Assembly: GCA_023544645.1 (NCBI GenBank)
Contig: JAMJFO010000009.1
Coordinates: 14,882-78,881 of the forward strand
DNA length: 64,000 nt
From: Desulfobulbaceae bacterium
GTDB lineage: Bacteria; Desulfobacterota; Desulfobulbia; Desulfobulbales; Desulfobulbaceae
Direction of reading: 5' to 3'
In this document: in pieces, positions 49,617 through 64,000 of the stretch
How the letters are laid out: each line of letters begins with the position of its first letter
How positions within the stretch are numbered: position 1 is the stretch's first letter
The notes under the pieces: generated by a model
Databases searched by the model: none
Told to the model about the DNA's origin: nothing
What the model saw: only the letters and a program-made list of their open reading frames with translations
Translations under genes and position numbers: made by a program

Positions 49617-49664
49617 GTATATTACCATTAAGTATATATTAAATTCAATGCGATGGAACTTTTA

Positions 49665-50735
49665 ATGTCAAGCCGGACATGTTTTCTCTTCGTGGTTGTT
49701 GTTTTTTCTGTGTTTATCAGCGGGACGCTCTCACCCGTCCAGGCAAAGCCGCGCCTGGAAATTGCTGTCAAACGCCAGCAGATCCGCAACGACTATGTGC
49801 GATTCGAGACCATTATTGATGAGTTGGATATAACCAGAGGTATGACCATTGTGGATATCGGTTCGGGACCGGGCTATGCTTCCTTTTTATTTGCCGAGAA
49901 ACTGGAGGGAACCGGGGCGGTATATCCAACAGATATTCGCGAGGACTTTGTCGGGTATATAGATGAAGAGGCAGAAAGGAGAGGCCTGACCAACCTTTTT
50001 CCCGTTGTCGTGAACGATACGGAGCTGGATGATTTTTACGGCAGACATCATTTTGATATCGTTTTTGTTTCAAACGTCTATCACGCAATTGATAATCGAG
50101 TGGAATATTTCAGAGAATTACGTAAATCCCTGAACCCCGGCGCGCAGGTGGTTTTCATTCTTTACAACCAGGTCCCCCTGTTTACTGTGGATGACTTTTA
50201 TGAAACAGAGGGCATTATAGGTTTTCTTTCTCAGGCCGGAGACGATGATCCCTTTGTCCGGTATTTATCCGATGAAACCAAACTGCTTGTCGCAGAAAAG
50301 ACCGCAACCCGGAAGCTTGAAAAAAGGCTTGTTGAAGATTTTAATCAAATGCTCCTGAACCCGCATTTTTTCAGAGACTTTTATGACGGTTCATATTTTA
50401 GAAAAGATATGTTTGATGCTGCTGAACGGGAACTGGCAAATTGGTTGTTGATGGTACTCAAGGAGGATGGAGCGCTGGAAGCGCCTGTTGACCAGCTTGA
50501 TGCAAAGACGATGCGCAGGGTCATCAAGTTCAATCGGCTGTTTTTTCAAAGCCGTTTCGGCGATTATCTCGCAAATAATGCGATGGGGGCCTATGTCCCA
50601 GCCGGTGACGCCAACCGCCATACAAGCAAATATGAGATGTTGCGTGAACTCAATGCAGCTGGGTATAAATTTGTCAAAGAGGTGCGGCTGTCAGCCTATT
50701 TTGACGGAATTATCATGGTGCCGGTCACTCCCTGA
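49665..50735 (+). CDS. SAM-dependent methyltransferase with signal peptide (copy 1)
   Basis: About 356 residues. A hydrophobic signal (CFLFVVVVFSVFISGTLS, cleavage near VQA) precedes a class I methyltransferase fold with SAM motif I VDIGSGPGYASF. Motif II is YPTDI and the later VSNVYHAI is motif IV-like. The C-terminal ~150 residues are an extra helical region with no recognised domain. Export of a SAM enzyme is odd, because SAM is cytoplasmic. The hydrophobic N-terminus may instead be a membrane anchor with the enzyme facing inward. The start ATG at 49665 follows TTTTA; one at 49653 is also possible. Its last 11 bases overlap the convergent DUF1566 gene. Confidence 0.78.
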   Translation: MSSRTCFLFVVVVFSVFISGTLSPVQAKPRLEIAVKRQQIRNDYVRFETIIDELDITRGMTIVDIGSGPGYASFLFAEKLEGTGAVYPTDIREDFVGYIDEEAERRGLTNLFPVVVNDTELDDFYGRHHFDIVFVSNVYHAIDNRVEYFRELRKSLNPGAQVVFILYNQVPLFTVDDFYETEGIIGFLSQAGDDDPFVRYLSDETKLLVAEKTATRKLEKRLVEDFNQMLLNPHFFRDFYDGSYFRKDMFDAAERELANWLLMVLKEDGALEAPVDQLDAKTMRRVIKFNRLFFQSRFGDYLANNAMGAYVPAGDANRHTSKYEMLRELNAAGYKFVKEVRLSAYFDGIIMVPVTP

Positions 50736-51423
50736 ACCCGTCCGGAGACGGAGCAGCGTCTATCTCCAAAACATTGCGCACCGGCCAGACACCCAAGGCA
50801 TCTGTCACTTTATTGCCCATGCGGCTGGAGCCTGATGCCCCGTACAGCTTCTTGCTGACATGGATGCTGCCCCTGCTGAGACCGACGTTAAACGCGCCAA
50901 AGGTATATACGGGATTGGTTGTGGAGGACCAATACCAGGTGGACTGGACATTGGAAAAAGGGTGGCCCCAGGCCAGGCCGGGGTCGTGGCGTGAATAATC
51001 GATCAGGCTCCGCAGTTCATTGATATTGGGCAGGCGCCAGTCACCGGCAGTGGATTTATCGGTAAGGCCGCATCTGCCGTTGGCAAGATTGTTGCTCCAG
51101 GTCAGGGCTGATTGCCAGTCCAGCGTTCCGTTTTTTCTTGGGATTCCCCCCGCAGTATCAGTGCAGTTTGCATCTCTGAGCCAAATCAATCCGGTCAGGT
51201 TGTCGGTTATAGTCCCATTTTTATTGTCGGTAAAGCGGGGGGAAGGTAACGCTGCGCCTGCCTGTATCTCCCCGTCCTGCCCGGTATTGGCACAGTCGAT
51301 AATAATTCCGTTGGCACTGTAGCAGGTATTCTGTCCGGTCTGCGGAATTTGAATGGGTGCTGCAATGGCGCTGACAGCCAGAAACAGCACAGGGAAGGTG
51401 GTGGTCCCAAGACCTTTAAACAT
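50725..51423 (-). CDS. Exported DUF1566 (Lcl C-terminal-like) protein, single domain
   Basis: 232 residues with a signal peptide (TTTFPVLFLAVSAIAA). It contains a Cys-bracketed segment (TGQNTCYSANGIIIDC), then TGLIWLRDAN and the DUF1566 core with GDWRLPNINELRSLIDY and YWSSTTNP ... VWPVRN. DUF1566 has a C-type-lectin-like fold and is found in bacterial adhesins. Third gene of the minus-strand trio. Confidence 0.82.
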   Translation of the reverse strand: MFKGLGTTTFPVLFLAVSAIAAPIQIPQTGQNTCYSANGIIIDCANTGQDGEIQAGAALPSPRFTDNKNGTITDNLTGLIWLRDANCTDTAGGIPRKNGTLDWQSALTWSNNLANGRCGLTDKSTAGDWRLPNINELRSLIDYSRHDPGLAWGHPFSNVQSTWYWSSTTNPVYTFGAFNVGLSRGSIHVSKKLYGASGSSRMGNKVTDALGVWPVRNVLEIDAAPSPDGFRE

Positions 51424-51467
51424 GTTTTACTCCTCTTTTGGCAACAGGATTTATGGCAGCGGTACGG

Positions 51468-52661
51468 TTATTGAGAATTATCGCATACCGGCCAGACGCT
51501 TGACTTTATTTTTTTGGCAACAGGGGCCACGGCGCCATCCTGCATGCTTATGTTCCAGGCGTTCCAGGTTGCGTATGCATATGAGGTGGATGTCCAGTAC
51601 CTGTATGCATCAATATTACGGAATCCCGAACTTTCCAGCCAGGCGGCGCTGTTCTCCTGTCCACGGTGTATCAGGCTTGTGAGTTCGTTACGGTTTGGCA
51701 GCCGCCAGGCGTTTCTTCCCAGAAATTGATTGGTATTCAGGCATTGGATATAGTCCAGGGCTTCCTGCTGTGTTTTGTGCGTCCCAGGGGCGCATGCCGA
51801 TGGGCCGGGAGTCCGGCTGTTTTTACTCCATATCAGGCCGGTCAGGTTGTCGGTGATTGTCTGGTCGGTGTCGGTGAACCTGGGCCGGGGCCAGGCCGCA
51901 CCAGACTGAATTTCTCCGTCCTGGCCGGTGCCGGCACAGGAAATGGCCGCGCCCGCACTGTTGTAACAATGGGTTTGACCGGTTTTTGCCACAGGCAAAG
52001 TCCCCGGTTCGCCGGTTCGTACGGGCCAGAGATAACCGACATTCGGTTTGCCGCGGCCGGCCACGATGCCTCCGTACATGGAGACACTCCATGCATAGGG
52101 AGGGTATGGAGCGTAGGTGGTTGAAGTCCAGTAGTAGTCCGGCCGGGTATTGAAAAAACCATGCGACTGCAGCCAGTCCACCTGGTTGCCTTGCTTGGTG
52201 GTCAGGCTTTCCAGTTCATTGATATTGGGCAGGCGCCAGTCGTCATGGCCCAGGTGTTTTTTTTGGTTGAGATTGTTGATGAAATCCAATGCCTGCGGCC
52301 AGGTTGTAAGGCCATCGACAGGATCAGCGTTGGCTGTCCATATCAGTCCGGTCAGTCTATCGGTGATGGTCTGGTCGTTGTTGGTTGTAAAACGCGGGCT
52401 GGGCCAGGCGAGGCCGACGCGCAGCTCACCATCCTGGCCGGTTCCTTCGCAGTTGATGACAGCGGAGGGACCGGTTGCTTTGTAGCAGAAAGCCTGTCCG
52501 GTTTGAGCAATTTGCACGGGTATCGGGGCAGCGTGGGTGGGAACTGCGGTAATGTGGCCAATTGCCGGGAGGGGGAATATGCTCATGATGGGTGACAACG
52601 TCGTGCACAACCCGAGCAAAGATAGATTTGCCCACCATTTCATTTTCATATTATCTGCCAT
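51468..52661 (-). CDS. Exported DUF1566 protein, tandem domains
   Basis: 397 residues with an N-terminal signal. It contains two complete copies of the unit seen in the neighbour: TGQAFCYKATG...NC then LTGLIWTAN then DDWRLPNINELESL, and TGQTHCYNSAGAAISC then LTGLIWSKN then NAWRLPNRNELTSLI. Both end in LWPVR/VWPVC. The ATG lies directly after the stop of the upstream gene (TGA ATG), so translation is coupled. Likely an envelope or surface binding protein. Confidence 0.82.
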   Translation of the reverse strand: MADNMKMKWWANLSLLGLCTTLSPIMSIFPLPAIGHITAVPTHAAPIPVQIAQTGQAFCYKATGPSAVINCEGTGQDGELRVGLAWPSPRFTTNNDQTITDRLTGLIWTANADPVDGLTTWPQALDFINNLNQKKHLGHDDWRLPNINELESLTTKQGNQVDWLQSHGFFNTRPDYYWTSTTYAPYPPYAWSVSMYGGIVAGRGKPNVGYLWPVRTGEPGTLPVAKTGQTHCYNSAGAAISCAGTGQDGEIQSGAAWPRPRFTDTDQTITDNLTGLIWSKNSRTPGPSACAPGTHKTQQEALDYIQCLNTNQFLGRNAWRLPNRNELTSLIHRGQENSAAWLESSGFRNIDAYRYWTSTSYAYATWNAWNISMQDGAVAPVAKKIKSSVWPVCDNSQ

Positions 52662-53612
52662 TCATGGAACAGGAGAAACGACGCGGAACCCGACGCCGGC
52701 GGTCTGGCTTGCCGGGGGGTGTACGCGCATGGATGCCCGGACATAATCGGGCTTGGAGCGCCAACTTCCCCCGCGAGGGACATGTCGCCGGCCCGCTTCC
52801 GGGCCACGGGGATTATTCTTGGGACTGTTGGCATAGTAATTTTTGCCGTACCAGTCACCGGTCCATTGCCAGACATTTCCCATCATGTCGTACAGGCCGA
52901 AGTCATTTGGTTCGAAGCTTCCCACCGGCGCAGTGTAGAGGTGCCCGTCGTTACAGTTATGAACCGTTTTTTTCGCAAAAGCCTGTCTGGCTGTCAGATC
53001 ACTTACATTGGCGTATCGGCAGGCAGCATCCACCTCGTTGCCCCAATAATTTCTATGAATAGTGCCGGCGCGGGCGGCATACTCCCATTCAGCTTCGGTG
53101 GGGAGCCGGTAAGTCCTGCCGCTCTGCTCTGTCAGCCACTTGGTGAATGCAACAACATCGTTCCATGATACGCATACGACCGGGTGGTCGTCTGATTGGG
53201 TGAAACCAGGGTTTCGCCAATTGTTCCGGAAAAGCCAGGACCACTGTCCATCAGCACCCGTGGCAAAACAGCCGCCGCCATCTTCCGCGGTTGTTCGGTA
53301 ACCGGTGGCAATAACAAATTTTCGGAATTGACCTGTTGTAACGCTGAATTTCCCCATTTTGAAGGAATCCACGCAGACTTCATGGACTGGGTTTTCATTT
53401 TTTTCGCCATCGCCAAATGAGTCACCCATCATGAAACAACCGCCGGCCACGTGGACAAACTCCATATCCGCCAGCGGTTCAAACAGGGGGGGTGCAGATG
53501 AGGTTTCCATGGTTGCCTCCGACGCGTAAGAGACATGTCCGCGGTCAATAACTGCTGTCCAGGTAAGGAAAAACAGAATAAGGAGTATCGCAGCAACCTT
53601 CGGTCTTCGCAT
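52662..53612 (-). CDS. Exported FGE-sulfatase-fold (SUMF1) protein
   Basis: 316 residues with a signal/anchor (KVAAILLILFFLTW). The FGE-sulfatase domain runs from EFVHVAGGCFMMGDSFGDG through RLPTEAEWEYAAR, DMMGNVWQWTGDW and PRGGSWRSKP to VGFRVV. True formylglycine-generating enzymes need a Cys pair in the active site and a sulfatase partner; no sulfatase gene is nearby. It is more likely a binding or structural member of the fold. First gene of the trio. The ATG at 53612 follows AGGGAAG. Confidence 0.82.
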   Translation of the reverse strand: MRRPKVAAILLILFFLTWTAVIDRGHVSYASEATMETSSAPPLFEPLADMEFVHVAGGCFMMGDSFGDGEKNENPVHEVCVDSFKMGKFSVTTGQFRKFVIATGYRTTAEDGGGCFATGADGQWSWLFRNNWRNPGFTQSDDHPVVCVSWNDVVAFTKWLTEQSGRTYRLPTEAEWEYAARAGTIHRNYWGNEVDAACRYANVSDLTARQAFAKKTVHNCNDGHLYTAPVGSFEPNDFGLYDMMGNVWQWTGDWYGKNYYANSPKNNPRGPEAGRRHVPRGGSWRSKPDYVRASMRVHPPASQTAGVGFRVVSPVP

Positions 53613-53949
53613 AACTATCTTCCCTTGCCGTCTTGTATCCGGCAAAATCGCTGCCACGGAGCGGGCCCGGTGGAAATACAACTAAACATGGTGAAAATGA
53701 AAAACATCCTGTGGCCGTGGTTATTGCCGGCAGTCAGGCAATAATTGCGTCTCCTGAAAAGATTGATGCAGGAGATGATTTCTCCCGTGGGGAGAGTTGT
53801 ACATTTTACCCATGGGTAATTATATGATAGTATTTATTTACATCAATATAAGTTTAGAGCAAATCGGCGCTGTACCGGGTGGAATAAGGTTTGTTGGTTA
53901 GGTTTTCATGTCTTGTTTCAGCATGTTAAGTAGTGCTAAGAGGTGGGTG
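53613..53949. other. Divergent regulatory region
   Basis: 337 bp between the FGE-fold gene and the SH3-like protein gene. It holds the perfect 14-bp palindrome TTACCCATGGGTAA at 53806-53819 followed by an AT-rich run with TATGATAG. No gene is evident. Confidence 0.5.
53806..53819. promoter_or_regulatory. 14-bp perfect palindrome
   Basis: TTACCCATGGGTAA lies in the divergent gap and could be an operator serving one or both flanking transcripts. Confidence 0.4.
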
Positions 53950-54654: not shown

Positions 54655-55356
54655 TTGAAAAGATATTTACATCCGCAATCACTGGTTGCCGGCCTCATTT
54701 TTCTGCTGTTGCTGCTCCAATGCGGCCCTGTTCCGGCCCAAGAACAACTTTCCATCCGGGAAAAGCGCCGGCAGCTTATTCCCCTTGATAAACTGAAGGT
54801 TTTTCTCGAAGCTCCGAAAAGGGTGCAGACCATGCAGCCGGAGAGGGTTCTGGATGCGCTTGGTGTGCGGCAAGGCGAAATAGCGGCCGACATAGGCGCC
54901 GGCACCGGTTTTTTTTCATTTTATCTGGCCCAACGAGTCGGGGATGAGGGCAGGGTGTATGCCGTGGAGATCGAGGACGAACTGGTTGACTTTATCCGCG
55001 AGAAAATGGAAGCCCGCGGTGTAACGAATATTGTGCCGGTAAAATCTTCTGAAGGCTCCCCGCGCCTGCCGCAATCCTGCTGTGATAAAATACTTATAGC
55101 AAATACCTACATATATTTTGAAAATCCCGTCGCTTTTATGGAAAATGTGCGGACAGCGCTCCGCCCCGGGGGACTGGTGGGCATCATTGAACTTGATGCA
55201 CAAAAGACGCAGTCAAAACGAAAATTGTTATTGGGGACCCGGGGAAGAGTGGTGCGCGAGGTTGTTGATGAAATGCAGAGAGCGGGTTTTATCCTCAGCA
55301 ATTCCTACGGCTTTCTCGAATCACGATTTTACCTGGTGTTTCGTTTGCAGGAGTAG
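54655..55356 (+). CDS. SAM-dependent methyltransferase with signal peptide (copy 2)
   Basis: 233 residues, starting with TTG immediately after a stop codon, so no upstream start is possible in that frame. A signal-like segment (LVAGLIFLLLLLQCGPVPAQ) precedes a class I methyltransferase with motif I ADIGAGTGFFSFYLAQ and motif II VYAVEIEDELV. It is shorter than the copy at 49665 and lacks its C-terminal extension. The pair flank the CLec-fold genes. Confidence 0.76.
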   Translation: MKRYLHPQSLVAGLIFLLLLLQCGPVPAQEQLSIREKRRQLIPLDKLKVFLEAPKRVQTMQPERVLDALGVRQGEIAADIGAGTGFFSFYLAQRVGDEGRVYAVEIEDELVDFIREKMEARGVTNIVPVKSSEGSPRLPQSCCDKILIANTYIYFENPVAFMENVRTALRPGGLVGIIELDAQKTQSKRKLLLGTRGRVVREVVDEMQRAGFILSNSYGFLESRFYLVFRLQE

Positions 55357-55525: not shown

Positions 55526-56464
55526 TTATTTGTTGTCCATGCTCCTGGTGGCCCTGATCAGGGCCGGATCAAACGGCTCAAAGAGCTCCGGTGTCTGCAG
55601 GTGACTCGGTGATTTGTGCTGAAAGACAAAGTCGCCGACCACGGGAGCCAGTTTTGAAACGGGAACCAGGGTCATGGCCGCCACCATTTGGCTGAGATCG
55701 CGAAGCAGATCAAGACGGATGCCGTGGTTGTAGCCCAGCCTGTACAATACCACTGCGACCTGTTCCAGGCTGGCGTTGCCGGCCCTGTCTCCCAGGCCGT
55801 TCACCGTTACATCAAGACAATGGGCCCCTGCCCGTATGGAAGACACCGCATTGGCGGTTGCCATCCCAAGATCGTTGTGGGCATGAAAGCATATCTCGAT
55901 TTCTGTTTCTTGACGCACCTGTCGGATCAGATCCGACACATCCCAGGGAAGGGCGCTGCCGTTGGTGTCGTAGATTGTGATCCTTTTGGCGCCCCTGTTT
56001 GCGGATTCCCTGCACATGGCCAGGACAAACTCCGGATCTGCCTGGGTGGCATGGGGAAAGCCGATGCCCACATTGTCGAAGCTCTTCAACGCAAAGTCCA
56101 GGACTTCCCCGGTCAGTACTTTTTTTTCACTTCTGTCCGCAGGGGGACGCAGTTCAGAGAGGGGAATCAGGATGTCAACCCTGTCCAGAAATTCTTCAGC
56201 CATGGTGAGCTGTTCTTTCCAGGCAGGTCCGTTTCCGTAAATAAGCCCTGCATATTGCAGCGGCAATTTCGGCGCGACAATGTTTTTTATTGCCTCATGG
56301 TCCCGTGCAAAATGTCCGGGCGCTATAATTTCCACTTCCTGAATCCCTGTTTGAGCAAGCATTTCCAGTAATGATCGTTTCTGGCGCAAATCAAGCGACA
56401 CGCCCGGCACATCAAGGCCTTCACGCATTGTGCTGTCTTTGAGGATAATTCGAGGGTGGTTCAT
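55526..56464 (-). CDS. DRE-TIM metallolyase family protein (LeuA/homocitrate synthase/HMG-CoA lyase-like)
   Basis: 312 residues. The N-terminal KDSTMREGLDVPG and the conserved FHAHNDLGMATAN and VNGLGDRAGNASLEQ motifs define the DRE-TIM family. These enzymes add acetyl-CoA to a 2-oxo acid or cleave such products. It is shorter than 2-isopropylmalate synthase and lacks the regulatory LeuA domain, so it resembles the NifV/homocitrate synthase size class. The ATG at 56464 lies one base after the stop of the upstream PLP gene. Last gene of the five-gene minus-strand run; substrate unknown. Confidence 0.82.
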   Translation of the reverse strand: MNHPRIILKDSTMREGLDVPGVSLDLRQKRSLLEMLAQTGIQEVEIIAPGHFARDHEAIKNIVAPKLPLQYAGLIYGNGPAWKEQLTMAEEFLDRVDILIPLSELRPPADRSEKKVLTGEVLDFALKSFDNVGIGFPHATQADPEFVLAMCRESANRGAKRITIYDTNGSALPWDVSDLIRQVRQETEIEICFHAHNDLGMATANAVSSIRAGAHCLDVTVNGLGDRAGNASLEQVAVVLYRLGYNHGIRLDLLRDLSQMVAAMTLVPVSKLAPVVGDFVFQHKSPSHLQTPELFEPFDPALIRATRSMDNK

Positions 56465-56465
56465 G

Positions 56466-57695
56466 TTACTTTTCTCCGGTGATCCTGCCGATATACTGCA
56501 GGACATCCTGCCGGTTGCGGACGGTTATTTCCGGCCGGGCAGAACCGTCTGCGTTGCTGACACCGCTGGTCAGGCAGCACAGGACTCTACTGCCCGCCTT
56601 GATTGTCCCTGTCGCAATTGCCTTGAGTGTTCCGGCCAGGGCTATCATTCCTGTTTTTTCCACAATATCTTCCGCCCTCAGCGTGACAGGTATGCCCAGC
56701 GTGTCAAGCTGGTCCAGGATCCGGCCGTATTCATCCGATGGTCGAAGAAAGGCATCGAATTCCTCTGCATTGAGAGTCAGCAGGTCTCCTCTGGTTATCA
56801 GCAGGAGCTGCCGTAGATCTTCATAGGTTCTGTAGGTTTGAGGGGTTTCGTCGTACATGACCCTGGTCAGAAGTTTGTCCGCCGTTGCTTGGGCTGCTGT
56901 AAACCGCGGCGCTGCCTGGGGTTTCCACATGGAAAAGACGGGACAGTTCGTTTCCTGCTGTATTCCCAGAAATCTCGGCACACTGCCCAGTTCCGGGAGG
57001 TATTGCTGCAGGACGGAATAAATGCCGATGGGGCCGAAACCGGCACTGACACTCTGGGACAGCCAGTCGTACGTTCCGGTGGAGAGCAACTGCTCCAGGA
57101 TAAACAGGCCCCGGAACATGGCGGCGCAGTTCCGCCATGGTTTTTCGGGAACATGACGTATTCCGGTCTTGGCGGCAAAGAGTTCGGCCAGCTCCTTTAC
57201 CCTCCCGCGATCTTCAACCCCCACCAGGTGTGCTTGGCCCGATGAGAAAATTCTGCTGTCCAGCAGATCAATATTCGCCTGCGGACAGAAAAAAAAAGTT
57301 TCCAGGCCTGCCTGCCTCCCATACCTGGTCAGGGCGCTTCCCGTATTGCCGCCTGATTCGAAAACACTTTTTTTAATGCCCTCATCAAGACAGAATGCCG
57401 CTGTCAGGCAGCCGTCAATTGACTTCAGGGTTCCGGTTGCCATCCTGGAGGTTTCGTCCAGAAGATGAATTTCCACCCCCCTGTATTGCAGGAACGGCAC
57501 AATACGTGCTCCCTCCCTGATACTGGTTTTCCGGAGATATTTTTTCAGGGCGTGGTCACGCTCGGAGAAATTGTCGAATCTGACAGCATTGCGATACCGG
57601 CAGACAATGCTTGTTTCCGCAGTTATGTCCTTATCTATGCACCCCTCAAGGGATGAGCTATCTGTGGCCAAAAGTTTCATGGAAAATGACTTCAT
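56466..57695 (-). CDS. Fold-type-II PLP-dependent enzyme, threonine-synthase-like
   Basis: About 409 residues. The PLP Lys lies in MATGTLKSIDG and the phosphate-binding loop in ESGGNTGSALTRYG, with a late CLTSGVSNADGS segment. This is the threonine-synthase/cysteate-synthase branch. Threonine synthase itself is an unlikely call because the usual metabolic neighbours are missing and the Lys motif differs from PTGSFKDR. Cysteate synthase (O-phosphoserine plus sulfite) is one possibility in a sulfur-metabolising organism. The gene begins inside the 3' end of the nitroreductase gene, with ATG at 57695 or 57680 and no strong ribosome site. Confidence 0.75.
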   Translation of the reverse strand: MKSFSMKLLATDSSSLEGCIDKDITAETSIVCRYRNAVRFDNFSERDHALKKYLRKTSIREGARIVPFLQYRGVEIHLLDETSRMATGTLKSIDGCLTAAFCLDEGIKKSVFESGGNTGSALTRYGRQAGLETFFFCPQANIDLLDSRIFSSGQAHLVGVEDRGRVKELAELFAAKTGIRHVPEKPWRNCAAMFRGLFILEQLLSTGTYDWLSQSVSAGFGPIGIYSVLQQYLPELGSVPRFLGIQQETNCPVFSMWKPQAAPRFTAAQATADKLLTRVMYDETPQTYRTYEDLRQLLLITRGDLLTLNAEEFDAFLRPSDEYGRILDQLDTLGIPVTLRAEDIVEKTGMIALAGTLKAIATGTIKAGSRVLCCLTSGVSNADGSARPEITVRNRQDVLQYIGRITGEK

Positions 57696-58209
57696 CCGGA
57701 GTCTTGATGTTTTTCGGACCGGGTTCTGCGCCGGGGAAGCCGATGGGCACAAGCGTTATCGGTTCAAAATCGGCGGGTATGTTGAGAATAGCGCGAATCT
57801 CGTCTGCTACCTCCGGTGTGCCTGTTTTGTAAGCGGACATGTAAACGGAGGTCAGTCCGTAATTTGCGGCAGCCAGAAGCAGGTGTGCCGTGGCAAGAAC
57901 GCCGTTTTCGATGCCTCGGTCGTAGGATCCGGCCCGTTCGACACAGGTGAGAACAACAACGGGTGCGTTGCAAAGAAAACCGGCAGGAAATTCACGTTTT
58001 TCAGGAGGACAGTATTTGTCCTTTATCTCTGCCAATGATTTTTTGGTCTCGCTGCTCCTTATTATGATAAACCGCCAGGGCTGGCCATCCATGGATGATG
58101 GAGCTCTGACGGCGCAATCTATCAACGCGCGAACCAGTTCATCAGGGACTTCTCTGGTTGAAAAGGTGCGAATCGTTCGTCGTGCTTTTACTGCCTGTTC
58201 AAAATCCAT
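57658..58209 (-). CDS. Nitroreductase-family FMN protein
   Basis: 183 residues. The family N-terminus FEQAVKARRTIRTF and PSSMDGQPWRFIII (FMN and NAD(P)H contacts), plus a mid-domain hydrophobic helix (ATAHLLLAAANYGLTSVYM), place it in the nitroreductase family. Such proteins reduce quinones, nitro groups or act as flavin dehydrogenases in biosynthesis. It overlaps the PLP-enzyme gene and lies 34 bp after the EamA gene. Confidence 0.88.
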   Translation of the reverse strand: MDFEQAVKARRTIRTFSTREVPDELVRALIDCAVRAPSSMDGQPWRFIIIRSSETKKSLAEIKDKYCPPEKREFPAGFLCNAPVVVLTCVERAGSYDRGIENGVLATAHLLLAAANYGLTSVYMSAYKTGTPEVADEIRAILNIPADFEPITLVPIGFPGAEPGPKNIKTPDEVIFHETFGHR

Positions 58210-58243
58210 GTTTTGCTCATCTGCATATAATCGTATAATCCTG

Positions 58244-59128
58244 CTAACCGGTCAGGATCAAGGCAACGCCTGCTACTGCAACAATAGCACCTGCTATGGC
58301 GCGAAGCGATAGTTTTTCGTTCAACAACAGTACTGCCATGGGTAATATAAAGATAGGGCCCGTCGAGTTCAGCGGACCGACAATGGAGGCGTCGACATGC
58401 TTGAGCGCTACCAGCGAAAGCCAGAAACCACCGACAACAACAACAAGGACCACGGCAACAACCTTGATCAGGAGGCCGCCCCTCCGAAATGGCGCCATCC
58501 CGGCACCAAGCTCGGAATGCAATATTCCCCATACTACCAGGCCGACAGCTCCGGCCAGCAGACGTATCCACGTGGCCTGGACAGTGGGCACCGAACTGAC
58601 CCCCACTTTTGCCAGCAGCACTGCGCCGGCTGTACAGAGAACGGACAGGATGCCGTAAATGACTCCCAGGGGGTATCGGGCTTCCTCGCCGTTGGTGCCG
58701 GAGGTGCGTTCCCGCAGGACCCAGCCGACTCCCACTGTCGTGGCGATAATACCGATCCATACGGTTATTGAAGGTTTTTCTCCCAGCAATATAGCTGCTG
58801 CCAGGGCAATGGCCACCGGGTTGAGGGATCCCATCAGGGAGGCCCGTCTCGGACCGAGATGGAGCAAAGAAAGGAAAAAGAATGTATCCCCGACAGCTAT
58901 GCCGATAATTCCGCTTAACATGAGAAAGACAAGGGAGGAATTGTCCATGGAAGCCCACCCGGTAAACATCAGGGACATGGCCAGAAAAAAGCTTCCGAGA
59001 ACGGTTTTGGCGAGATTCATGCTGTAGGCGGAAAGGTGTTCACCGAGTTTTTTCCAGAGAATGGCGCCGAGCGCCCACGAGCACGCCGAGAGCAGGGCTA
59101 TGGCGCTGTAAAAGAGTCTATCTTCCAT
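58244..59128 (-). CDS. EamA/DMT-family transporter
   Basis: 294 residues with ten predicted transmembrane helices in two EamA repeats (about 1-140 and 150-294). DMT transporters often export amino acids or metabolites. In this context it may export the product of the neighbouring enzymes. Confidence 0.88.
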   Translation of the reverse strand: MEDRLFYSAIALLSACSWALGAILWKKLGEHLSAYSMNLAKTVLGSFFLAMSLMFTGWASMDNSSLVFLMLSGIIGIAVGDTFFFLSLLHLGPRRASLMGSLNPVAIALAAAILLGEKPSITVWIGIIATTVGVGWVLRERTSGTNGEEARYPLGVIYGILSVLCTAGAVLLAKVGVSSVPTVQATWIRLLAGAVGLVVWGILHSELGAGMAPFRRGGLLIKVVAVVLVVVVGGFWLSLVALKHVDASIVGPLNSTGPIFILPMAVLLLNEKLSLRAIAGAIVAVAGVALILTG

Positions 59129-59177
59129 GGTAGGCGGCCCGGTTTTTCATTACGATCATGAATGAATGGTCTGTGCT

Positions 59178-60614
59178 TTACTTGGAATGATATGAGAAAG
59201 GATTCAGTTCTCCTTCAGTATAGCATGATCGTGGGAATGGGAGATAGTCGTGATGGTAAAACTGGGTGATGACCTCGTCGGCGAAAAAAATTCCCCTGTC
59301 CGTCAATTTGAGGAATGATTCGTCCTCGACAACAAGGCCATATTTGCTCAGGTTTGCAATCTGGCGGGGAAAGGTCTCGTTTACGGTTTTCCTGGTGGTC
59401 TCTCTGAACTGTTTTTTCGATACGCCGTTGTGTTTCAGCGGAAGCGTCAACGCCCATCTCTGTTGATCATCCTCGGTCTTGACCTTGCCCCTGTTGATGG
59501 GCAGGATTCCCTGATGGATAAGCGCGGCGTAGGCCTGTAGACTTTCCCCGGTATTAAGATAGAACCGTCCCTGGACATTGGACCAGGAAGAGGCGCCAAA
59601 GCCGATGACATCCGCCAGTCGGTCAGTGTGGTCCTGGAGATACTGGGAGTCATGGACCGGGCCTTTGGAAAAGAATCTTCTGGAGGTTTCCCTGAGCCCG
59701 CCCTGTTCCGCAACCTGGAAGCCCAGTTGTTTCATGATGTATATTTCATCAACAGTGGGAAAGGCCCCTGGTTCTTTTTCGAAACGATCCTTTACCTTTC
59801 CTGCCTTATCGCCGTGGGGAACAATGCGCAGTCTGTAGAGCTGGAATGCATCAACATCCAATGCCACCACGGCGGTTTCCAGGGTTGTCTGCCATTTCTC
59901 CGGGGTACAGCCCGGATAACCATAGATCAGGTCAATGGAGACGCTTTTGAAATCAACCTTTCGTGCCTGGCCCATGGCCTGCATTACGTCGCGGGCGGAA
60001 TGTCTCCGGCCCATGTCCTTGAGGGACTGGTCGTCCAGCGCCTGTACGCCGAGGCTGACCCGGTCCACCCCGTTATCTTTCAGGATACGCAATTTTTCCA
60101 GCCCCTGGTCCCCCAGGATAGTGCCCGGCTCTGTTTCGCAGATTATCTGGGCGCATTGGCTGAAGTCAAAACCACCATGCAGGATCCGGCACAGTTTCGC
60201 AGTCTGTTTCGGCGTCAGTGCGGTTGGAGTGCCGCCGCCGATGAGCATGGAGCTGGGCTGGATCTTTTCAACGCCGAATTTTTTCTTCCAGAGGGTTATT
60301 TCCTTTTCCAGGCAGTCCAGATAGTCGTTGATCACCTCTTCAGAGCAGTCGACATTGACCATCCAGTGGCAGTAGAGGCATTTGGACCTGCAGAATGGGA
60401 TATGAATGTAGACGGAGGTGCGCCTTGCACTGTCAAAATCCAGTCCATCAAGTATAAGAGCTTCATCACCGGGGCCGTACATCGGGATGGGCGGATAAAA
60501 GATGGTGGGGTAATAAAGGCTGCCTCCGGGGATGAGACCCGCTTTTTCGAGTTCCGCCGCGTTATGGAGCTGCACTTGCATTGCTGCATGATCTGTTAGA
60601 GAGGGATGTTTCAT
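59178..60614 (-). CDS. HemN/HemW-like radical SAM protein
   Basis: 478 residues. The radical SAM cluster reads CRSKCLYC (Cys 75, 79, 82) in the family's YIHIPFC context, with IGGGTPTAL and SLGVQALDDQSLKDMGRRH after it. The C-terminal HemN domain is present (FGASSWSNVQGRFYLN and a winged-helix-like end). Family members include coproporphyrinogen dehydrogenase, heme chaperone HemW, and methyltransferases or cyclopropanases in secondary metabolism. The histidine after the third Cys (CLYCHW) differs from the CxFC of true HemN. First gene of the minus-strand run. Confidence 0.86.
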   Translation of the reverse strand: MKHPSLTDHAAMQVQLHNAAELEKAGLIPGGSLYYPTIFYPPIPMYGPGDEALILDGLDFDSARRTSVYIHIPFCRSKCLYCHWMVNVDCSEEVINDYLDCLEKEITLWKKKFGVEKIQPSSMLIGGGTPTALTPKQTAKLCRILHGGFDFSQCAQIICETEPGTILGDQGLEKLRILKDNGVDRVSLGVQALDDQSLKDMGRRHSARDVMQAMGQARKVDFKSVSIDLIYGYPGCTPEKWQTTLETAVVALDVDAFQLYRLRIVPHGDKAGKVKDRFEKEPGAFPTVDEIYIMKQLGFQVAEQGGLRETSRRFFSKGPVHDSQYLQDHTDRLADVIGFGASSWSNVQGRFYLNTGESLQAYAALIHQGILPINRGKVKTEDDQQRWALTLPLKHNGVSKKQFRETTRKTVNETFPRQIANLSKYGLVVEDESFLKLTDRGIFFADEVITQFYHHDYLPFPRSCYTEGELNPFSYHSK

Positions 60615-60815
60615 TGAATGCTATCTTGGTTTATCCGTGAGAGTTAGCTGTAAAGGGGATGCGTGGGGCATGTTTTTTTATCACTCTGGAGAAGCTGCAG
60701 TCAACAGGGCATACTGCAACGGTATTATGTCGAGAAAGATGAATTATCACTACGGCATAGCCTGCCTGTCTGTCACCTCTTTGATCACAAACATCCGGAA
60801 TCTGATAACCTCGGG

Positions 60816-60861
60816 AAAAGGTAACCGGAATGCCGAATTGTCGGCATTCCGGTTACCTTTT
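60816..60861. terminator. Perfect 21-bp bidirectional terminator
   Basis: AAAAGGTAACCGGAATGCCGA pairs fully with its reverse copy around the loop ATTG and continues into a T run on the plus strand. It lies between the end of the giant cytochrome gene and the radical SAM gene and likely ends the cytochrome transcript. The rest of the 305-bp gap (60615-60919) shows no gene. Confidence 0.9.
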
Positions 60862-60919
60862 TCGGTCACCCGGGCGCGGCCAGCCAAACTGGCGGAGCGC
60901 CGGTTCTTTATTCAACATC

Positions 60920-63900
60920 TTATGGGCATACAGTGCATTCGTAAATGATTTTTATCTGCCCATTGCCTCCATTCTGGGGAAAAGTGCCTCGCAGGCCACC
61001 CACGCCGCCGCCGGTGGGATTGTACGTGGCCCCGGCATCGGTCGAGTAATCAGCGCATCCACTGCAGCCGATGCCACCGCCGCCGCCATAGAGATCGCCG
61101 TCACCATATGTGTCCCAGCAATAGTCGGACCACAAACCCGCACTGTCTCCGCCGTCACCGCCCGCAGCCTCTGCCGCAAGCATTGCTGCTGTATTGTCAT
61201 AGATAGCGCTGGAACCGCCTCCCCCGGCTCCTCCCCATGAAAAATCAATATCACAGGCGTCACCATTTTCGCCGAATATACCTGGGTTATAGCCCCATCC
61301 TCCTGCGCCGCCAATTTCACTCGTTGCGGAACTTATCTGGCCGGCGCCGCCCACGTTGATTGATAACGATATGTCGGCTGTCGCATCGCCATAGTGCATG
61401 ATGATCTCATGTCCATATTCACCGCTGGTACCGCTGCCATATTCATCGGGTCTTCCGCCAGCACCGCCGGCACCCTTGACAATGAACATGATATTCGTCG
61501 CCCCGGACGAAATAGTGTGTGTTTGCTCCGAACCTGTGTAAATAAATGTTTGCGAGTATCCTGACGCGGTTGTCAGCTCATTGGCTGTCGCGGCTGATGT
61601 GTAGTTGGTTCCCGAGTCGGGAGCAACGGTGTTCAGCTTACCCTTGTACGCATAGACAGCCACGTAATATCTTGTGCTGGGAGAGAGCCCGGTCACCACC
61701 ACGCTGTCCGTGGTGCTGCTTCCCTTGTGCACGACATAATTGCCGGCGCCGATCTGGGATCCGTAACCGAATAACGAGTTTGCCGTATATCCGCTTGTAT
61801 TCGTGCCGTCAGGTGGGCTCAAGGTCACTGCTGATCCCTGCCGCATGAGGACGATAACTCCATCGCCGTCGGTTGTGCCGGGCGACCAGCTCACGGTCAT
61901 GGTCGTTGCGGTGAAATCAGTTATATTCACCACCGGCACCGACGGTTCGGTATAGAAGCTGCCCTGTGGAGAATAACCGGTGCCGGCGCTGTGGGAGGCG
62001 TAACCGCGATAATATATTTTTGTCCCTTCCGGCAGCGCGGATCTCACCGAGCTGAAAGCGCCCCGGGGGGCGGCGCCTTCCGCCGAGGGATTTTCAGTGG
62101 GGATTGAGGACTCGCTCCACACCGTGCCATGATCGGTGATGGCCTTGCCTCCTTCATAGGTTATGGTGGCGCCAAGGGTGGCCGAGGTGGCGCCAATGGT
62201 TGGAGCTGTCGGAGAGGAGAGGGTCGGTGGAGTGGGCGGGGTGTCCGTCCATGGCGTAACCTCGTTCCAAAGCTGATTATAGGGCCATGCCACCGCGCCG
62301 TTGACGCTGTCGTGACATGAAACGCCGCCGAAATTGTAGGAGTAGCTGAAGGGGCCGTCAAGATACCCGTCTCCGCTTCCTGAGCCGCCGCCCGGAAATT
62401 GCCCGCTGCCGGAGCCGCTGCCGCTGCTGCCGCTGCGACTGTGAAAGGGGATGGAAGTCGGATAGCCCGATGATCCTACCCGGCCACGGTGGTCGAAATC
62501 CAGGCAGTTGGTGACCATCAGTCTGGGTAATGCTGATCCGTTGTGCGGAGAGTGGCATTTGGAGCAGGAGAATTTATGTTTGGCGCCGGATCCCCAGCCC
62601 TTGACCGTCTCGTGCACCCGATCCATGGTGCCCCATTGGTTATTCTGTACTCCACCGTCAGGATCGATATCAGCATTGGAGCCGTCGTTGGTATGGCACT
62701 TCAGGCAAAGACCGGCAAAAACGTTGACATTTTCAGTAATTCCTGCGTTGTAGGCAAAATTCCAGTTGGCAAAGGTGTTCTGGTCGATATGATAGCCCGG
62801 ATCGCTTCTCTGGCTGCTGGGCCCATATCCGGGACGTCCAATGGCTAAATTTGTTTGCAGGGGCGCGGCATCTTCCTTGTAAGGAGAAGTGAGCCAGGTG
62901 CCTTTCAGTAAGGGCACCCCGTATTGTTGAGTTGATGACCATGTTCCTGCATTGTCTTCGCAGGTTGATTTTCTATTATACGTTGCATTGGAACAGGTTC
63001 CAACGGCTTCAGGGCTGACTCCATGCGGGTCATGGCACGGAGTGCAGAGGCCGTTGATATTGTGCATGGGTGTTGAATAGAGAGAACTTGAAGCGCCAAA
63101 ATGCCCGCCGGCATTCTGGGAAAAATCCTTGTATGGGTAGCGTTTCTGGGTGCCGGCGCCGCCGGGTAACAGAAATTCGGAATCATAATAGCCGATAATC
63201 GCCTGGCTTGCCTCGTAAGTGGCCTGGTAGCCCCATGGTTTGCCTGCAGCGCTTCCATCCGGTGTCAAATGGCAATCAAAACAAAGGGCTGCTCCGGTGT
63301 TGTGTTTATTTTTGAATGCATCCGAGCCTCCGGATTGGGGCTGGTAGTCCACTGAATACCCCCCGATATCTGCATTGGTATCTTTCAGGATCCCCCCATT
63401 GTCGTCAAGGCCGGCAAAAAGATTGTCGTAGGATGTAGTGATTCCAGAAGCACTCGAACCATGGGCATTATGGCAGTCAAAGCAGGCTACGGATACAGAG
63501 CCGCTCGTATCGGGTATTATACCGTCTACTCCGGTGCCTCCCGCCGTTTCAGCTTCAGCATCCCAGCCCCTGCCGTTGCCCGCGGCATTGCCGTGTGCCG
63601 AGTATGCTTTATTTATGTTCTTTTGGGCAGCGTTGGCGGTGGTGGTATATTTTCCCCATGTTGTTGCATTGGGCTGAGAGTATCTGGCATCAACACTGGT
63701 GCCGTCCCAGGCATACTGATTGGGAGCCTTCCCATCGCCGAAGATGCCGCCGCCTGTTGTATAATTGTTGTAGTCATCATTATGACACCCAAGGCAATGG
63801 GGATTCAACTCCAGCGCCGTTGATGCGCCAGCCGTATACTGTATTGCGGTGGTGCCGGGGGTGTATATGCCCGGACGTGGATCGGCAATGCCGTCGTTAT

Positions 63901-64000
63901 TATTGTCCCTGATGACCAGGTCCACGGCTGAACCGGAAATTTCCGGTGTGTGATATGGGGTAGGTTCGCCATTTATGTCGGCTTCCCAGTGGCATTGATA
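60920..64000 (-). CDS. C-terminal 1026 residues of a giant multiheme cytochrome with Fn3-like and Gly-rich domains (5' end beyond window)
   Basis: The frame is open across the right edge; the first visible residues, YQCHWEAD, are probably the end of a heme motif. Six complete CxxCH motifs follow (CLGCH, CFDCH twice, CTPCH, CLKCH, CSKCH) in the first ~490 residues, several with the doubled-CxxCH context CHxxHG. A Ser/Gly linker (GSSGSGSGSG) leads to two fibronectin-III-like domains (~560-790). The last ~230 residues are Gly-rich (GGAGGWGYNPG, GGGGGIGCSGC). The layout is that of a secreted, cell-surface cytochrome for extracellular electron transfer or attachment. A GTG at 63925 is not its real start. 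Confidence 0.85.
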   Translation of the reverse strand, partial: YQCHWEADINGEPTPYHTPEISGSAVDLVIRDNNNDGIADPRPGIYTPGTTAIQYTAGASTALELNPHCLGCHNDDYNNYTTGGGIFGDGKAPNQYAWDGTSVDARYSQPNATTWGKYTTTANAAQKNINKAYSAHGNAAGNGRGWDAEAETAGGTGVDGIIPDTSGSVSVACFDCHNAHGSSASGITTSYDNLFAGLDDNGGILKDTNADIGGYSVDYQPQSGGSDAFKNKHNTGAALCFDCHLTPDGSAAGKPWGYQATYEASQAIIGYYDSEFLLPGGAGTQKRYPYKDFSQNAGGHFGASSSLYSTPMHNINGLCTPCHDPHGVSPEAVGTCSNATYNRKSTCEDNAGTWSSTQQYGVPLLKGTWLTSPYKEDAAPLQTNLAIGRPGYGPSSQRSDPGYHIDQNTFANWNFAYNAGITENVNVFAGLCLKCHTNDGSNADIDPDGGVQNNQWGTMDRVHETVKGWGSGAKHKFSCSKCHSPHNGSALPRLMVTNCLDFDHRGRVGSSGYPTSIPFHSRSGSSGSGSGSGQFPGGGSGSGDGYLDGPFSYSYNFGGVSCHDSVNGAVAWPYNQLWNEVTPWTDTPPTPPTLSSPTAPTIGATSATLGATITYEGGKAITDHGTVWSESSIPTENPSAEGAAPRGAFSSVRSALPEGTKIYYRGYASHSAGTGYSPQGSFYTEPSVPVVNITDFTATTMTVSWSPGTTDGDGVIVLMRQGSAVTLSPPDGTNTSGYTANSLFGYGSQIGAGNYVVHKGSSTTDSVVVTGLSPSTRYYVAVYAYKGKLNTVAPDSGTNYTSAATANELTTASGYSQTFIYTGSEQTHTISSGATNIMFIVKGAGGAGGRPDEYGSGTSGEYGHEIIMHYGDATADISLSINVGGAGQISSATSEIGGAGGWGYNPGIFGENGDACDIDFSWGGAGGGGSSAIYDNTAAMLAAEAAGGDGGDSAGLWSDYCWDTYGDGDLYGGGGGIGCSGCADYSTDAGATYNPTGGGVGGLRGTFPQNGGNGQIKIIYECTVCP

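Follow-up and report, generated by a model that had tools for sequence, protein, structure and literature searches.

Within a 64,000-nucleotide stretch of a Desulfobulbaceae bacterium contig (JAMJFO010000009.1; hereafter the window), a run of five genes ends in a nitroreductase, a pyridoxal phosphate (PLP) enzyme and a DRE-TIM enzyme, whose genes overlap or nearly do so, stay together as a conserved unit (the triad) and represent new subfamilies, placed here behind a module composed of a HemN-like radical S-adenosylmethionine (SAM) enzyme and an EamA exporter. In our estimate the chances are about even that the run is a biosynthetic operon which is rare, was probably acquired by horizontal transfer and, through its triad, makes a small amino-acid-like molecule or building block. 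The original prediction had viewed all five genes as one uncharacterised small-molecule pathway. The run itself is real, as the list of open reading frames (ORFs) and Pfam place five ORFs with the expected domains on the minus strand, near the positions first given and with two start codons corrected. The pathway idea holds for the triad as a biosynthetic unit but not for the five genes as a conserved set, the HemN-like and EamA genes being a separate, second module that is absent at seven of nine triad loci.

In transcription order the intergenic spacing is 49 bases between the HemN-like and EamA genes, 34 between the EamA and nitroreductase genes, and then −23 and +1, which makes a single operon and transcript plausible. 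The last two values agree with the prediction that the three final genes overlap or lie one base apart. For the PLP gene the start at ATG 57680 is preferred over TTG 57752, giving a 23-base overlap with the nitroreductase gene, and for the DRE-TIM gene ATG 56464 is preferred over 56506, one base past the PLP stop; the homologues agree with both choices. A consensus scan returned 14 terminator-like sites within genes over both strands, where 6.5 are expected by chance. As none of the operon-strand candidates has a T-run that is convincing by eye, we read no internal terminator in the operon.

The gene neighbourhoods of other genomes indicate that the PLP and DRE-TIM genes stay linked to each other and to the nitroreductase gene in all nine loci found, with no case of free separation. 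The order nitroreductase, PLP enzyme, DRE-TIM enzyme is constant at 39–53% protein identity, six loci share a 23-base overlap of the first two genes, two have 14 bases and one has 41, and a possible DRE-TIM start is never more than a few bases away from the stop codon of the PLP gene. The recurrence of this order, overlaps included, in nine loci so diverged argues for linkage beyond chance. Also, the pairwise identities or distances of the three proteins correlate over the loci (r 0.75–0.90, Mantel p 0.0004–0.02), and together the constant order, the overlaps and the correlated distances are strong evidence that the triad is one functional unit.

The triad is rare and patchy, and probably mobile. 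A relative of the PLP enzyme above background is found in none of the 56 genomes of its own genus, family and order, in seven of 395 genomes of the phylum (window genome included) and in three of the 17 genomes of one order. A motif scan over about 85,000 species, each represented by a single genome, which requires two conserved peptide motifs and which distant members would escape, returned seven loci, in Syntrophaceae, other 'Deltaproteobacteria', a Candidatus Binatia genome and bacterium HR37. Viral contigs hold no relative of the PLP enzyme, and the only match among plasmids is a threonine synthase at 28%. The absence in close relatives and the scattered distribution suggest that the triad has probably spread by horizontal transfer. 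A literature search, whose coverage is incomplete, found no such gene set. All folds are known, and as judged from Pfam, NCBIfam and PDB sequences neither the subfamilies nor the way they are coupled nor their partners have a match beyond the superfamily level.

The PLP enzyme belongs to its superfamily by score (PF00291, 39.3 bits for a cut-off of 35) and by the presence of the catalytic lysine and the PLP loops. It is however far from the threonine synthase models (NF006050, 35.1 vs a cut-off of 303 bits; TIGR00260, no match) and from cysteate synthase (TIGR03844, 31.6 vs 324.9 bits), genuine threonine synthases scoring 599–658 bits under the same models. The nine triad proteins form a single clade apart from threonine synthases, with support of 100/99. 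With threonine and cysteate synthases (PDB 6cgq, 2zsj, 9k3c) they share the fold type, the SGNTG-like and glycine-rich loops and the C-terminal LT[SG]; in the alignment K86 (the catalytic lysine), N112 and T371 are invariant in both groups, and the phosphate loop is retained. Unlike those enzymes, to which identity is about 20%, they lack the NSxNP stretch, carry an insertion of about 17–20 residues near residue 320 and have the lysine motif TLKSIDGC in place of the threonine synthase GSFKDRG; this motif had been singled out as unusual from the start, and proves invariant in nine homologues. The arginine of the threonine synthase YR-x-E-G motif helps to bind the substrate phosphate, and Arg183 aligns with it, so that a phospho-amino acid is a reasonable guess for the substrate. 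An AlphaFold model built from eight sequences is of low confidence (predicted local distance difference test score, pLDDT, 61), its top Foldseek matches being threonine synthases.

The DRE-TIM enzyme likewise falls below the cut-offs of the LeuA or isopropylmalate synthase (IPMS) models (189.8/517 and 127/599 bits) and of NifV (TIGR02660, 204 vs 462.9 bits). Pfam returns PF00682 matches only, with no LeuA dimer or regulatory domain, as first proposed. In a tree which excludes one homologue (L073, found at a phosphonate locus in a crop-associated bacterium) the triad proteins form their own clade with support of 100/98, their placement near NifV-type proteins being unsupported. The scores and clades of the two enzymes thus uphold the view that neither is a standard threonine or leucine enzyme. 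The window genome encodes separate LeuA-type, NifV-like and CimA-like proteins. Its NifV-like protein (L002, G000:C76:34504-35217) reaches 254 bits, against a cut-off of 463, over the 238 of 386 residues examined, and can be regarded as a candidate homocitrate synthase.

A good structure model of the DRE-TIM enzyme (pLDDT 83) matches isopropylmalate and homocitrate synthases. With these and with methylthioalkylmalate synthase (MAMS) (PDB 6ktq, 3rmj, 6e1j) it shares the TIM barrel, the REG and HxHND metal site (ligands H194 and H196), the NGLGDRAGN loop and the general-base histidine, and it differs in the replacement of the synthases' xDA[TS]R by FP[HN][SA]TQ and of SDxH by SxxR. In MAMS, the general base is His388, on which Tyr399 stacks, and Tyr399 is in turn held by Glu227, the E227A and E227D variants being inactive (PMC11532901). 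Alignments, with the mapping to MAMS running via homologous structures, place His288 at His388, Phe295 at Tyr399, Pro137 at Glu227 and Asp18 at Gln93. The metal site and the base expected of a Claisen-type enzyme are thus kept and the Glu/Tyr pair is replaced, from which the enzyme likely performs an enolate reaction, with another substrate or in another direction; carbon-chain extension is possible. Loss of the glutamate was considered as proof of a non-synthase, a view weakened by its absence from two annotated synthases, a NifV and a LeuA.

Turning to the remaining proteins, the nitroreductase is a member of its family (PF00881, 76.7 bits for a cut-off of 23.5), is 39–51% identical across seven aligned triads and is neither a BluB (48.8/150 bits) nor an FbiB C-terminal domain (69/250 bits). 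The HemN-like enzyme shares CxxxCxxC, GGGTPT and the HemN_C domain with the HemN, HemW, HutW and STM4012 family, but is below all NCBIfam cut-offs (STM4012, 191/380; HutW, 179/400; HemW, 164/205; HemN, 159/325 bits) and represents a rare branch of its own, with an N-terminal extension, present in three of 395 genomes. Its orthologues among these are confined to genomes G292 (52–54% identity) and G352 (38–39%). The EamA protein is a clear family member (125.5 vs 28.2 bits in Pfam), and its orthologue follows the HemN-like gene immediately in G292 (51%) and lies within the HemN operon in G352 (46%).

In both genomes these orthologues stand beside a methyltransferase, described as secreted, that is related (36–37%) to the one at window positions 54655-55356. 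In G292 the triad is also present, on a different short contig, and flippase, methyltransferase, dehydrogenase and B12-radical-SAM genes are found on a third. No PLP triad was detected in G352, where one HemN-like operon (L061 6398-12702) includes the methyltransferase, EamA and an NMT1-type ATP-binding cassette (ABC) transporter, of a kind that adjoins three triads, and a second HemN-like gene (L062 2831-17733) accompanies two B12-radical-SAM genes and PaaK-like, flippase, methyltransferase and glycan genes. These arrangements tie the HemN/EamA module to the same network of loci and indicate that the five genes are no fixed unit. The triads themselves recurrently neighbour B12-radical-SAM, methyltransferase, SPASM radical SAM, PaaK-like, NMT1/ABC and flippase genes, often in loci of surface-polysaccharide type. 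An ELFV-type dehydrogenase is adjacent or nearby at five of the nine, and its close orthologues (>500 bits) occur in four of 395 genomes, G292 among them, all of which bear the triad (hypergeometric 3.5e-8). At one locus (L038 7008-7874) an NMT1/SsuA-like protein two genes upstream of the triad has no obvious signal peptide and no adjacent ABC genes, and may have an enzymatic role instead of being a binding protein.

The biosynthetic reading can be put as a sequence of reactions. The PLP enzyme would activate an O-phospho-amino acid, of O-phosphoserine or O-phosphohomoserine type, through elimination or replacement; the flavin enzyme (the nitroreductase) would reduce or oxidise a C=C or C=N bond of an intermediate; and the DRE-TIM enzyme would join, or split, a C–C bond adjoining a 2-oxo acid via a metal-held enolate, His288 serving as base. 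At most other triad loci the dedicated ELFV-type dehydrogenase would interconvert the 2-oxo and the amino acid, and B12-radical-SAM and methyltransferase enzymes would tailor the product; at the window locus tailoring would fall to the HemN-like enzyme and export to EamA. We infer the substrates, the product and the order of the steps, and the sequence does not allow a product to be named. A stronger version, a new natural-product or cofactor pathway, seems to us doubtful: here a PLP enzyme descended from threonine synthase and a metal-enolate DRE-TIM enzyme whose active site has been rebuilt would act one directly after the other, a PLP-bound vinyl or aminoacrylate being joined to an enolate, to yield an unprecedented amino acid which, after lineage-specific radical tailoring, would be exported or attached to the surface.

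Several observations weigh against the biosynthetic reading. No triad enzyme has a close characterised relative and the structure model of the PLP enzyme is of low confidence. The HemN-like and EamA genes are missing at most triad loci, and their co-occurrence with the triad outside the window is weakly significant (p 0.03). Sequence searches find in the window genome neither the ELFV-type dehydrogenase nor the methyltransferase partners of other triads. Many of those triads lie in polysaccharide-type loci, which fits a surface-bound over a free product. In fact, the secreted product as originally stated is not sustained, since it rests on EamA and the triad loci without it more often have a surface-polysaccharide-type flippase.

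In the main rival, which the other triad loci favour, the triad provides a glycan or lipid of the cell surface with a building block, such as an amino-acid-like group ligated to a sugar, and the acceptor genes would be elsewhere in the window genome. We regard it as a possible alternative, to be held tentatively: several triads are accompanied by Polysacc_synt flippase, glycosyltransferase-like, type I phosphodiesterase, PaaK-like ligase, B12-radical-SAM and methyltransferase genes, but the window triad has an EamA exporter and no adjoining glycan genes, and two further loci (L039 and L040) have few or none nearby. The exporter in turn invites comparison with metallophores, as amino-acid-derived zincophores are exported by EamA transporters, the usual exporters in a particular class of zincophore gene clusters (PMC7438024). 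A metallophore of opine or aminopolycarboxylate type, or a comparable secreted chelator leaving the cell via EamA, would also suit the amino-acid and 2-oxo-acid chemistry of the operon. It is nevertheless unlikely, given that ORFs and Pfam reveal no nicotianamine-synthase-like or opine-dehydrogenase gene at the locus, so that the defining biosynthetic enzymes of the opine-like clusters (PMC7438024) are not present, and that no uptake receptor or metal regulator is seen beside it.

The missing Glu/Tyr pair of the synthases, the occurrence of aldolases and lyases among the wider relatives of the DRE-TIM enzyme and the NMT1/ABC importers adjoining three other triads would be compatible with a catabolic or detoxifying operon, composed of a DRE-TIM lyase or aldolase, a PLP eliminase and the nitroreductase as reductase. 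This we judge improbable, as the window has an exporter rather than an importer and the triads elsewhere accompany B12-radical-SAM, methyltransferase and flippase genes. Merely divergent versions of ordinary threonine, leucine, citramalate or homocitrate enzymes would account for the identical superfamilies, and are very improbable: the proteins are far below every curated cut-off, form separate clades, coexist with the genome's own LeuA-, CimA- and NifV-like proteins and are absent in close relatives, and a housekeeping identity of the PLP and DRE-TIM enzymes is rejected on cut-offs, trees and own-genome paralogues. Radical SAM enzymes and nitroreductases often tailor peptides. A pathway for a ribosomally synthesized and post-translationally modified peptide was rejected, since no small precursor ORF recurs consistently among the tightly packed triad loci, and the short ORFs that precede the HemN-like gene look like chance.

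The features of the locus are listed in the table.

Table. Genes of the operon and the convergent methyltransferase gene, in window coordinates.
Feature	Position	Strand	Length	Domains and remarks
HemN-like radical SAM enzyme	59178..60614	-	478 aa	CxxxCxxC motif CRSKCLYC; HemN_C; Pfam Radical_SAM 1.1e-19
EamA/DMT-family exporter	58244..59128	-	294 aa	Pfam EamA 2.3e-36
Flavin mononucleotide (FMN) nitroreductase-fold enzyme, gene 1 of triad	57658..58209	-	183 aa	Pfam Nitroreductase 3.1e-21
PLP fold-type II enzyme, remote kin of threonine/cysteate synthase	56466..57680	-	404 aa	PALP 6.5e-10
DRE-TIM (HMGL-like) enzyme without LeuA regulatory domain	55526..56464	-	312 aa	PF00682 1.5e-47
Methyltransferase, signal-like N-terminal segment, convergent with operon	54655..55356	+		Methyltransferase domain; possible accessory part

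The convergent methyltransferase has no close relative in the genomes of 36 relatives. It is 30% identical to a second methyltransferase at 49653-50735, and both have signal-peptide-like N-termini, an unusual location for SAM-dependent enzymes. Between them, at 50725-53681, two Lcl_C-domain proteins lie beside an FGE-sulfatase (formylglycine-generating-enzyme-like) protein. On the other side of the operon, at 60815-60870, a long and almost perfect inverted repeat (ggtaaccggaatgccga...tcggcattccggttacc) with T's after it separates the HemN-like gene from the gene at 60920-63925, and probably serves upstream of the operon as a terminator or insulator. The product of that gene is large and contains an fn3 domain and several CxxCH heme motifs; the gene reaches nearly to the window edge, its true start being maybe beyond it. 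Rfam returned no riboswitch or known RNA element at 53–64 kb.

The triad product is most likely a building block of an unusual, amino-acid-like kind, which may be either exported or attached to the surface. The three coupled genes suffice for direct testing by expression and metabolomics. They constitute a compact, rare and horizontally spread biosynthetic cassette, known only in uncultured anaerobes and made of new subfamilies of well-studied folds, in which the DRE-TIM and PLP active sites are useful cases for the evolution of substrate choice within both superfamilies.

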